From assembly GCF_021390675.1 (NCBI RefSeq), contig NZ_JAJEJV010000004.1, forward strand, positions 2,294,001 through 2,358,000: a stretch of DNA of 64,000 nt. Reading direction: 5' to 3'. The notes beneath the pieces are model-generated. The model did no database searches, was not told the DNA's origin, and was given only the letters and a program-made list of their open reading frames with translations. Numbering within the stretch: the first letter of the stretch is position 1; the number at the start of each line of letters is the position of its first letter. This stretch comes from Dyella sp. 2HG41-7 (lineage in GTDB: Bacteria; Pseudomonadota; Gammaproteobacteria; Xanthomonadales; Rhodanobacteraceae). A program made the translations under genes and the position numbers. Shown piece by piece: positions 10,321 through 25,286 of this stretch.

Positions 10321-10672
<352 letters not shown>

Positions 10673-21443: not shown

Positions 21444-22022
21444 ATGGAAAAGGGGCGGCTCGAAGCCTTCAGTGATGGCGTGTTGGCCATCATCATTACC
21501 ATCATGGTGCTGGAACTGAAGGTGCCGCACGGTGACAGCTGGGACGTCTTGATTCCGCAGTGGCCAGTGTTCGTGAGCTACGTGATGAGTTTCGTTTACG
21601 TAGGCATTTACTGGAACAACCACCATCACTTCCTGCATGCCGCCGAGAAAGTGAACGGCAGCGTGCTTTGGGCCAATCTCCATTTGCTGTTCTGGTTGTC
21701 GCTGACGCCGGTCACCACCGGCTGGATGGGCGAAAATCACTTCGCGCAGCTTCCTGTGGCGGTCTACGGCTTTGTATTATTGATGAGCGCCGTCGCCTGG
21801 GCGCCGTTTCAAGCCAGTCTCATCGGCGCTAACGGCGGAGAATCCTCATTGCTGGCGCAAGCGGTGGGCGGCGACTGGAAAGGCAAGGTCGCCATCGCCA
21901 TATACCTGATTGGCATCGTGCTGGCGTTCGTGGCGCCGTGGGTGTCGTGTGTTCTTTACGCCACGGTGGCAGCGATCTGGTTCATTCCCGATCGGCGCAT
22001 CGAATCGCGGATCTTGAAATGA
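21444..22022 (+). CDS. TMEM175-family (DUF1211) putative potassium channel
   Basis: A 192-residue membrane protein with about six helices. It carries the family signature [17 protein letters not shown] at residues 9-25 and a later [10 protein letters not shown] motif. Bacterial TMEM175 proteins are leak-type K+ channels in which the FSD motif helix lines the pore and which assemble as tetramers. It begins 13 bases after the T-run of the dnaK terminator, with GGAGG upstream. Its TGA overlaps the dnaJ start (ATGA), so it is translationally coupled to dnaJ. A channel gene in this position is unusual for the dnaK-dnaJ locus. Confidence 0.88.
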
Positions 22023-23206: not shown

Positions 23207-24007
23207 ATGACGCAAGCCATTCGCGTTGCCATCAATGGCGCCTCCGGTCGTATGGGCCGGGCGCTGCTCGCGCTGTTGCGAGAAGATCGGCGTTTCGCAT
23301 TGACGCGCGCCGTGGTCGCCGAAGGTTCGGAGCAAGATGGTGCGTCGGTGTTCGGCGGTCTTTCTTATACGCACAACTGGGAAGGCGCGTTGGCGACGGA
23401 CGTCGTGATCGACTTCAGCGGCCCGGATGGACTGGCTTCCGCGTTGACGTACTGCATCGCGAACAAGGTTGCGCTGGTAACGGGCACCACCGGCATCGAA
23501 TCATCGTTGGAAGCGCAAGTCGCTGCAGCCAGCAAGCAAATACCAGTGCTGCAAGCCGCCAATTTCAGCCTTGGCGTGGCAGTGTTGACGCGGTTGCTGC
23601 GCGAAGCCGCTGCCGCATTGCCGAATTGGGATCTGGAAATTATCGAATCGCACCACAACCGCAAAGAAGACGCGCCGTCCGGCACTGCGCTGGCGTTGGG
23701 GCATGCAGCAGCTGATGCACGTGGCACGACGTTGGCGAAAGACGGCGTGTATGTGCGCGAAGGCAGACCCGGTGCGCGGCGTGAAGGCACGATCGGTTTT
23801 GCCGTCGTGCGTGGCGGCGATGTCGTGGGCGAACACACGGCGTTGGTGCTGGGTCAAGGCGAGCGCGTCGAACTGAGCCATCGCGCCACGGATCGATCCA
23901 TTTTTGCGCGCGGCGCGCTCGAAGCCGCCGCATGGCTGGCAGGCCGCAAGCCCGGTGCTTACAGCATCGACGATATGTTGCAGGATCGCGGCCGCAAGCC
24001 CGGATAA
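23207..24007 (+). CDS. dapB: 4-hydroxy-tetrahydrodipicolinate reductase
   Basis: A 266-residue NAD(P)H-dependent enzyme of lysine and diaminopimelate synthesis, reducing 4-hydroxy-tetrahydrodipicolinate. The Rossmann motif is NGASGRMGRALL near the N-terminus. The catalytic and substrate motif is ESHHNRKEDAPSGTAL, with GTTGI and ANFSLGV also present. It is followed by the manganese riboswitch and exchanger, then on the opposite strand by unrelated genes. The dapB-carA-carB-greA order of related genomes is here interrupted by three inserted genes. Confidence 0.97.
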   Translation: MTQAIRVAINGASGRMGRALLALLREDRRFALTRAVVAEGSEQDGASVFGGLSYTHNWEGALATDVVIDFSGPDGLASALTYCIANKVALVTGTTGIESSLEAQVAAASKQIPVLQAANFSLGVAVLTRLLREAAAALPNWDLEIIESHHNRKEDAPSGTALALGHAAADARGTTLAKDGVYVREGRPGARREGTIGFAVVRGGDVVGEHTALVLGQGERVELSHRATDRSIFARGALEAAAWLAGRKPGAYSIDDMLQDRGRKPG

Positions 24008-24050
24008 AGCGAAGGGCGGTTGTCCGCAACCTGCTGAGCTTGTAGCATCC

Positions 24051-24180
24051 GAAACGTTGTCATTGGGGAGTAGCCATCTTCGTCGTGTCGAGCCGTCATG
24101 GCTCCATGCATCGAGGAATTCGCGTCAACATACTTGAAGCCTTCGCGCTTCATGGCGCGGATAGTTATCGCAACGTTCTG
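24051..24180 (+). promoter_or_regulatory. yybP-ykoY (Mn2+) riboswitch
   Basis: The conserved L1 and L3 loop sequences of the manganese riboswitch are both visible: TTGGGGAGTAGCC (24063-24075) and GTCAACATACTTG (24124-24136). The outer helix P1 is formed by AACGTTG (24053-24059) and CAACGTT (24171-24177). Members sense Mn2+ through these two juxtaposed loops and usually turn on Mn2+ export genes when Mn2+ is high. It lies directly upstream of the CaCA-type exchanger. The 69-codon frame that spans it (24085-24294) is not a gene. Confidence 0.9.
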
Positions 24181-24225
24181 ATTGCGATGATCCGGCGAGA
24201 CCTTTGGCCACGACGCGCTTACCCA

Positions 24226-24278
24226 GGCCGGGCGAGCCGCGTACGTGCGCCATTGGTTTTCGCTTGCCCGGCCCGGAA
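24226..24278 (+). promoter_or_regulatory. expression-platform hairpin next to the exchanger RBS
   Basis: GGCCGGGCGAGC (24226-24237) pairs with GCTTGCCCGGCC (24262-24273) through 12 pairs including one G-U. It ends one base before the ribosome-binding GGAA (24275-24278) of the exchanger. No T-run follows, so control of translation rather than termination is more likely. This is inferred from position. Confidence 0.55.
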
Positions 24279-24284
24279 TCGCCC

Positions 24285-25286
24285 ATGCTTATGACAGCAC
24301 TGTTGTTTCTGCTCTCCGCCGCAGCGATCTATGCGGCCTGCGAGTATTTCGTCAACAGCATCGAATGGCTGGGTAAAAAGCTCAATCTCGGCGAGACCGC
24401 CACCGGCACGGTACTAGCCGCGTTCGGCACGGCATTGCCCGAAAGCGCGGTGACGTTCGTGGCTGTGATGATGGGGCGCACCGCGGATGTGCGCGACATC
24501 GGCGTCGGTGCGGCCATGGGCGGTCCGTTGGTGTTGGCGACGATCGCTTACGCCGTGGTGGGCATCGCGCTGTGGTGCCATCGACATCGCCTGCGTCGCG
24601 CCGATGGACGCGTGCAAGTCGACGACGCACGATTGGCGCGCGATCAAGCGTGGTTTCTTTCCATCTTCGTAGTGAAGTGCGCGCTTGGCTTGATCGCTTT
24701 CGCGTTCAAGCCATGGTTAGGTGTGTTGTTTTTGCTCGCCTATGCGATCTACGTCTGGCGCGAACTGAAAGTCGAAGGTGATGCTGCAGATCACGAAGAC
24801 CTCGAACCGCTGAAATTTCAACCACGATCTGCGACGCCTTCGATGTTGGCGGTCTCGTTGCAGGCGGCGCTGTCTCTAACCGTGATCGCCGTTGCTTCGC
24901 ATATTTTTGTTTCGCAGATCGAGGCCGTCGGGTTGGCCATGCATCTGCCACCGCATTTCGTCGCCTTGATTTTGAGCCCCGTCGCCACCGAATTGCCGGA
25001 AACCATGAATGCACTGATCTGGGTGCGTCAGGGCAAGGAGCGTCTGGCGTTAGCCAATATCTCCGGCGCAATGATGATTCAAGCGACCGTGCCCAGCGCA
25101 TTGGCGATCTTCGCAACACCGTGGTTGTTCGATTCCACGCTGGTTGTTTCCGGCGTGATGACGATGCTTGCCATCGTTTATTTGTGGCGTTTGTTCCGAC
25201 GCGGCCGCGTCGATGGCCGTGCGTTGATTCCGGTGGGATTGTTCTATGTGGCGTTTGCTGTGTACGCAGCTTGGCGGTTTATATGA
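24285..25286 (+). CDS. CaCA-type sodium/calcium-exchanger-like cation antiporter, probable Mn2+ exporter
   Basis: A 333-residue membrane protein of the Ca2+/cation antiporter superfamily, with about ten helices in two inverted halves. The two alpha-repeats are visible: FGTALPESAVTFVAV with GAAMGGP near residues 45-80, and SPVATELPETMNAL with ANISGAMM near 230-260. The acidic ExxxT/N-type residues of both repeats are present. Family members exchange Ca2+ or other cations for H+ or Na+. The riboswitch upstream senses Mn2+, so export of Mn2+ is the best inference. The ATG at 24285 is taken because GGAA precedes it; ATG 24291 is also possible. Confidence 0.85.
   Translation: MLMTALLFLLSAAAIYAACEYFVNSIEWLGKKLNLGETATGTVLAAFGTALPESAVTFVAVMMGRTADVRDIGVGAAMGGPLVLATIAYAVVGIALWCHRHRLRRADGRVQVDDARLARDQAWFLSIFVVKCALGLIAFAFKPWLGVLFLLAYAIYVWRELKVEGDAADHEDLEPLKFQPRSATPSMLAVSLQAALSLTVIAVASHIFVSQIEAVGLAMHLPPHFVALILSPVATELPETMNALIWVRQGKERLALANISGAMMIQATVPSALAIFATPWLFDSTLVVSGVMTMLAIVYLWRLFRRGRVDGRALIPVGLFYVAFAVYAAWRFI

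Follow-up and report, generated by a model that had tools for sequence, protein, structure and literature searches.

Manganese riboswitches of the yybP-ykoY type are ranked among the most abundant riboswitch classes in two reviews (PMC7266159, PMC9481103). The closest described counterpart of the locus considered here is that of B. pertussis, in which a yybP-ykoY riboswitch (the BprK RNA) controls BP3410, a protein of the calcium:cation antiporter (CaCA) family (PMC8546581). The mRNA of BP3410 is raised by Mn, a response that is abolished by two G->A changes in the aptamer; calcium is stated, without data being shown, to have no effect, and the Mn content of cells with functional BP3410 was about 5-fold lower (PMC8546581). 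The same work saw an RNA of roughly 200 bases, which it ascribed to growth without Mn. The length of this RNA is close to that of an aptamer together with the downstream module described below, a comparison that is ours and not that of PMC8546581. A second relevant leader is that of E. coli mntP, which is switched off without Mn in a manner concerning its ribosome-binding site (PMC11647493) and is controlled at the levels of both transcription and translation (PMC7838592).

The locus analysed here lies in a 64,000-nucleotide stretch of DNA from Dyella sp. 2HG41-7, referred to as the window (Table 1). In common with BP3410, for which induction by Mn and Mn export have been shown (PMC8546581), its gene belongs to the CaCA family and is preceded by a Mn2+ riboswitch; as BP3410 has been published as a riboswitch-controlled, Mn-exporting CaCA protein, the window unit is a further member of a published arrangement. 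However, the organism is a different one, no downstream pseudoknot is described for BP3410 in the available portion of PMC8546581 and the two proteins are likened by superfamily, not by tree.

Table 1. Features of the riboswitch-exchanger locus, in positions of the window
Feature	Position	Strand	Basis
Mn2+ riboswitch (RF00080, yybP-ykoY), aptamer plus downstream alternative hairpin	24053..24192	+	cmscan 62.6 bits, E 4.6e-14
Aptamer P1, 5' strand, pairing with 24171-24177	24053..24059	+	7 Watson-Crick pairs
Aptamer P1, 3' strand, partly common to the alternative hairpin	24171..24177	+	constrained fold
Alternative hairpin competing with P1; first 7 bases pair with last 7	24167..24188	+	exact 7-bp stem; in minimum-free-energy fold
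Conserved GGCGAGACC motif, opening the downstream module	24194..24202	+	motif count in phylum sample; alignment
S0/S1 helix: 24200-24202 with 24255-24257, 24205-24208 with 24249-24252, inner 24213-24217 with 24238-24242	24200..24257	+	covariation on 81 distinct sequences
S2, 5' strand, within the S1 loop	24226..24237	+	covariation
S2, 3' strand, separated by one base from the weak ribosome-binding sequence that follows	24262..24273	+	covariation
GGAA, weak putative Shine-Dalgarno-like sequence, six bases before ATG	24275..24278	+	read from sequence
CaCA-family exchanger, predicted Mn2+ exporter, 333 codons plus stop	24285..25286	+	PF01699 E 3.4e-32; predicted fold; distribution

The aptamer and its competing hairpin

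An Rfam scan of the whole window at curated cut-offs returned two matches, RF00080 and a tmRNA gene (10321-10672, - strand, 199.6 bits). The RF00080 match exceeds its cut-off of 45 bits, spans the whole length of the model with an inner skip and is the sole match to this family in the genome (4.26 Mb, 4 contigs). Both conserved metal-site loops are present and aligned within it. The initial annotation had proposed a yybP-ykoY element from these two loops and a P1 helix, and the covariance model bears this out, with both loops where they had been placed and a P1 of seven pairs. A Mn2+ riboswitch ahead of a predicted exporter gene is thus a confirmed observation.

When the stretch 24045-24200 is folded, the structure with P1 forced has an energy of -54.8 kcal/mol and that with the alternative hairpin forced -57.1 kcal/mol; these energies are close, so that the ligand could tip the balance between them. 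A simple scan of 23950-24320 found neither a sigma-70-like promoter nor an intrinsic terminator. A permissive Rfam scan of 24030-24310 yielded, besides RF00080, only Xoo1, at 16.9 bits against a cut-off of 70 (E 1.3), and assignment of the downstream module to a known RNA family was rejected on this score.

A conserved crossing-helix module before the start codon

Between aptamer and start codon lies a stretch that opens with GGCGAGACC and holds two helices, S0/S1 and S2, whose strands cross. The initial annotation had recognised a 12-bp hairpin ending one base before the ribosome-binding site; this hairpin is real and corresponds to S2, but it forms only one limb of the crossing-helix module, and the earlier picture of the expression platform was therefore incomplete. 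Among 132 leaders examined, 86 carried the module as judged by its motif and, once a Streptomyces copy was dropped and identical copies were merged, 81 distinct sequences were aligned. Primary sequence in and around S0 is strongly conserved in this alignment. Standard pairs occupy 94.3% of the pair cells of S0/S1 and S2, double-sided changes occur in 10 of 26 pairs (73 cells), and none of 500 shuffles reached any of five covariation measures, although the helices were derived from the same 81 sequences on which they were tested and relatedness inflates the covariation counts. Pairing falls to 34-41% when the partner strand is slid by one to three columns. The inner part of S1 was taken from the crossing-helix search of the window itself. 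Considered alone, S2 shows double changes in 4 of 12 pairs (22 of 500 shuffles were as good) and 18 additional types of pair (equalled by 3 of 500), together with 19 double-change cells and a covariation score that were each equalled in 0 of 500. RNAalifold, which cannot draw pseudoknots, returned S2 and a small other stem.

The module extends well beyond the leaders of CaCA genes. A covariance model of it (R1) matched 31 of 61 genomes of relatives, comprising 29 with the riboswitch-CaCA unit and two with GDT1 genes. In a sample of the phylum, searched with strict filters, R1 matched 6 of 378 genomes, each time beside an RF00080 match, a low count that is taken to mean fast divergence of the module. 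The same sample held 134 RF00080 matches, of which 87 were taken as loci for a test of the downstream motif; 81 of these 87 possess it. In the form [AGC][AG]AGAC[CT] the motif occurs in 81 of 86 core-bearing leaders, against 14 of 86 stretches of equal length further downstream. Most of these motif-bearing leaders precede GDT1/UPF0016 genes, as judged by a short motif test that is occasionally wrong. Specificity of the module for CaCA genes was accordingly dropped, given the R1 matches to GDT1 leaders and the wide occurrence of the motif in the phylum sample.

Crossing helices were then sought in 97 leaders (the 81 of the phylum sample, 15 others and the window), each compared with 100 dinucleotide shuffles of itself. 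At most five shuffles were as strong in 86 of the 97 and at most one in 66, several leaders being near-identical and the 97 thus not independent; for the phylum-sample leaders alone the figures are 73 and 55 of 81. The corresponding values are 6 and 1 of 97 for coding-sequence controls, and 4 and 1 of 42 for controls upstream of the aptamer, for which only 42 loci were long enough. The 86 passing leaders contain 72 different S2 helices. Start-like codons and Shine-Dalgarno-like words were located by pattern, in 85 and 73 leaders, respectively; S2 ends upstream of both, at a median distance of 12 bases from the former and 3 bases from the latter. Eleven leaders failed the comparison with shuffles (L235, L274, L276, L286, L288, L308, L312, L313, L033, L039 and E. 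coli mntP).

The E. coli mntP leader resembles that of the window in that its aptamer is followed by GGCGAGACC and by crossing helices in the same order, immediately ahead of an AGGA and the start codon. Unlike the window leader, it controls MntP and not a CaCA protein, its S1 loop is longer and, in common with the alx leader, it gave no match to R1. Its RF00080 score (41.6 bits) is below the cut-off, and its crossing helices, despite lying in the expected places, do not beat shuffles (14 of 100 were as strong, or 22 of 100 with a longer stretch). In leaders that fit about 170 bases, the module occupies roughly positions 98-170 of the RF00080 model, where the Rfam structure has a stem of seven pairs enclosing a single unpaired loop; these positions are skipped by the match in the window and in two other CaCA leaders. 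No description of the module was found in the available portions of the literature on the yybP-ykoY, mntP or Mn2+ riboswitch with a pseudoknot (PMC7838592, PMC9495176, PMC7266159, PMC11087558), and the founding papers (Dambach 2015, Price 2015) may hold an earlier account.

The alignment and the shuffle comparison point to S0/S1 and S2 as conserved crossing helices, which either form an H-type pseudoknot or exist as two alternative states. In the window the link between S0 and S2 is just four bases long, too short to bridge the whole stem, so that not all of the helices can coexist there and they may alternate. This spacing lends weight to a model without any pseudoknot, in which S0/S1 and S2 are mutually exclusive hairpins and Mn2+ binding selects between them, and pseudoknot-free folding does give S0/S1 with an outer GGCGAG pairing. 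All six pairs of the outer GGCGAG:CUCGCC helix can form in 77 of 81 sequences, with one compensatory change; nevertheless, the helix is nearly invariant and hence weakly tested and, by eye, it is not general outside CaCA leaders. For the former reason it was set aside as the switch itself, and it is kept solely as part of the two-hairpin model. The median loop lengths of 11, 6 and 11 over the 86 passing leaders, in contrast, suit an H-type pseudoknot. Two exclusive hairpins are therefore a serious candidate, to which we give a little under an even chance.

The exchanger and its predicted substrate

The gene behind the module starts at the ATG at 24285, with a second in-frame ATG at 24291. Its product matches PF01699 (Na_Ca_ex repeats) in two stretches with 111.9 bits against a cut-off of 24.9, and neither PF01169 (GDT1/UPF0016) nor PF02659 (MntP) is among its Pfam matches up to E 1, in agreement with its earlier description as a CaCA-like protein distinct from those types. 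TIGR00367 scores 82.5 bits, under its cut-off of 179.65. The five best named relatives are Dyella proteins, 81-87% identical. An AlphaFold model (pLDDT 74.5, pTM 0.73) resembles CAX, NCX_Mj, VCX1, NCLX and YfkE and has the NCX/CAX fold, with Foldseek E values of 2.2e-7 for CAX (4kpp_A) and 9.3e-6 for 3v5u. By eye, hrcA, grpE, dnaK and dnaJ lie upstream of the gene and carA and carB downstream; profiles add dapB, a TPR gene and a TMEM175-like gene. The last of these (21444-22022; PF06736, E 1.1e-32) encodes a protein like TMEM175-type potassium channels and is located between reading frames that by eye resemble dnaK and dnaJ.

With NCX_Mj, the Na+/Ca2+ exchanger of Methanocaldococcus jannaschii, the protein shares its fold, both central glutamates and both threonines. 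It differs at ion ligands of NCX_Mj: Ser51, Ser77, Ser210, Ser236 and Asp240 are replaced by Ala, Gly, Glu, Ala and Gln, respectively, and the place of Asn81 is uncertain. The ligand set of NCX_Mj-type Na+/Ca2+ exchangers is thus incomplete in the window protein. Among 30 relatives offered for comparison of this site, 27 yielded a protein, that of L274 being partial; the three without one were L161, L165 and L202. The second-repeat motif ATELPE with the Gln is kept in the window and the 26 full relatives (as ATEMPE in L191), in all of which the place of Ser77 is taken by Gly or Ala. The signature was rejected as a mark of riboswitch control, since riboswitch-less members carry it too; it marks a branch of the family. 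As Na+-site residues of NCX_Mj are replaced, it may be guessed that the exchanger is Na+-independent and H+-coupled.

The distribution of the gene was followed in 61 genomes, 37 of the window's own family and 24 others of the order. The exchanger is present in 30 of the 37 and RF00080 in 36 (the match in G023, of 36.2 bits, falling short of the cut-off). The riboswitch lies directly upstream of the exchanger in 29 of the 30 carriers; the exception, G003, a member of the genus, has the exchanger with neither aptamer nor complete module. In the seven same-family genomes devoid of the exchanger, G023 among them, an RF00080 match is followed by GDT1/UPF0016 (6) or MntP (1). Among the 30 exchanger genomes, in contrast, GDT1 matches are found in none and MntP exceeds its cut-off in one (G033, elsewhere in the genome), with a further match below the cut-off in G030. 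The other 24 genomes of the order contain weak exchanger matches only (10 genomes, 22-29% identity) or none (14). G027 and G057 each contain an additional, weak RF00080 match (30.6 and 22.4 bits; L043 and L044), ahead of an open frame that by eye resembles TerC.

Although GDT1/UPF0016 and MntP share their place behind the riboswitch with the exchanger, they belong to unrelated Pfam families, and a dapB, dnaJ, carA or TPR neighbour was found at 0 of 15 non-CaCA riboswitch loci (roughly 3 kb each). An in-place gene swap was rejected on this evidence, which indicates replacement by function and not at one site. The occurrence of unrelated proteins behind one metal-sensing RNA is the strongest sequence evidence for Mn2+ export, and export of Mn2+ by the exchanger is a well-supported prediction. 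The assignment of Mn2+ from the riboswitch, made in the initial annotation, likewise gains support from the same-family distribution and from the BP3410 precedent (PMC8546581).

Alternatively, Ca2+ or several divalent ions could be what the exchanger transports, the riboswitch doing no more than tying it to Mn2+ stress. The family names and the nearest solved structures are those of Ca2+ exchangers, and some CAX-type proteins carry both Ca2+ and Mn2+. Some yybP RNAs, moreover, may answer to other divalent ions (PMC7266159). Nevertheless, all seven same-family genomes that lack the gene place GDT1/UPF0016 or MntP behind RF00080, and ligand residues of NCX_Mj are replaced across the aligned relatives. 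BP3410, in addition, exports Mn and is not induced by calcium (data not shown there; PMC8546581). This alternative is thus considered improbable.

Wider spread of riboswitch-CaCA units

A scan of a genome collection confirmed 371 relatives, the best 80 of which were used as named loci. Within these best 80, the exact aptamer core GGGGAGTAGC lies within 330 bases upstream in 76 and dapB is present in 69. A whole-genome RF00080 search of 30 of the 80 gave a match in 26 and none in the genomes of L111, L142, L143 and L147. L111 and L147 have the exchanger gene with neither aptamer nor complete module; in L111 and in L054, the locus of G003, the exchanger follows almost directly on a dapB-like end. 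L142 and L143 lack the aptamer core and keep the module, sharing with the window some 83 bases (24191-24273 in the window) ahead of the start codon. In L143 a tRNA-Leu (2208-2292) is followed by what looks, by eye, like no more than the 3' end of an aptamer, with the downstream module still present.

These two loci and the strong primary-sequence conservation in and around S0 would suit a tandem riboswitch, in which the module senses a second signal and is not the expression platform of the aptamer, but the R1 matches at E <= 0.001 (31 genomes of relatives, 6 of the phylum sample) sit directly downstream of RF00080, L143 looks like a truncated aptamer behind a tRNA-Leu, and tandem Mn2+ riboswitches are said by a review to be lacking (PMC9481103), so that this reading is very improbable.

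In a sample of Burkholderiales, exchanger matches of any kind occur in 60 of 250 genomes, mostly of a distant branch; RF00080 lies upstream in 6 of 6 close homologues (L194-L199) and in 0 of 14 distant homologues scanned (L200-L213). Near one of these riboswitch-CaCA loci, L199, a Guanidine-II riboswitch match is also found (1002-1056, - strand, 41.7 bits, cut-off 32). In a sample of the class, exchanger matches, again mostly of the distant branch, were obtained in 31 of 274 genomes (this count includes the genome of the window), with RF00080 in 0 of 15 loci scanned (L156-L166, L168-L171). Members of another CaCA branch, with 28-29% identity to the window protein, also lie behind RF00080 matches (L193, L246, L250, L236 and the partial L274); the four full ones carry the ATELPE and Gln signature.

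In a plasmid collection, a homologue was found in 16 records, and RF00080 precedes it in 6 of 9 stretches (Massilia, Azospirillum, two Novosphingobium, Aeromonas and Burkholderia), the other three being a second Massilia copy, Streptomyces and Enterobacter. A metal-sensitive repressor and dmeF come after the exchanger on both Massilia plasmids, and the Azospirillum plasmid also has dmeF near the exchanger, beyond an MFS gene. On the Massilia putida plasmids (L185, L186), the copy that adjoins an IS256 gene has no RF00080 match, and a mobile element may therefore have parted gene and riboswitch.

A proposed mechanism and its implications

What the sequences show directly, as far as comparison and folding go, is a match to the aptamer, helices that compete with one another, crossing helices that are conserved, a gene of the CaCA family linked to the riboswitch, and other exporters behind the same riboswitch in sister genomes. 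The model that these findings suggest, and that we consider very probable, is that the Mn2+-bound aptamer switches the crossing-helix module from a state in which S2 occludes ribosome entry to one that allows expression of a Mn2+-exporting CaCA exchanger. Rising cytosolic Mn2+ would bind the aptamer and stabilise P1, which would break the competing hairpin; with that hairpin gone, the module (S0/S1 and S2) would leave the arrangement in which S2 covers the ribosome entry region, and the exchanger thus expressed would export Mn2+. The position of S2 beside the ribosome entry site suggests that 30S binding is blocked in the off state. The direction and level of control, Mn2+ transport by the exchanger and its coupling ion are the parts of this model that we infer.

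Translational control is plausible in view of the position of S2, the failure to find an intrinsic terminator and the account of the E. coli mntP off state in PMC11647493. The response in B. pertussis was measured on mRNA, so that termination, Rho or decay may also matter. Several observations count against the model, namely the weak ribosome-binding sequence, the exchangers without an aptamer in G003, L111 and L147, the presence of both CaCA and MntP in G033, and the lack of RF00080 matches in the L142 and L143 genomes and at the second Massilia, the Streptomyces and the Enterobacter homologues. Overall, the interpretation given in the initial annotation is partly supported.

A broader proposal may be formulated in two parts. 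Proteobacterial Mn2+ riboswitches would consist of the aptamer and a conserved pseudoknot module that comprises the GGCRAGACC motif, S0/S1 and S2, reaches to about 12 bases from the start codon, gates ribosome entry and is common to CaCA, GDT1/UPF0016 and MntP genes; and one CaCA branch, recognised by ATELPE and by Gln in place of the NCX Asp240, would comprise Mn2+ exporters uncoupled from Na+. We regard the two parts, taken jointly, as evenly poised between being right and wrong. Despite the abundance of the class, Rfam draws the platform of the proteobacterial Mn2+ riboswitch as an unpaired loop. If the proposal is true, one aptamer would be able to serve unrelated exporter genes through a conserved crossing-helix platform. 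The proposal also suggests a substrate for a CaCA branch whose members are labelled sodium:calcium antiporters in plasmid records, perhaps including those that lack the riboswitch.
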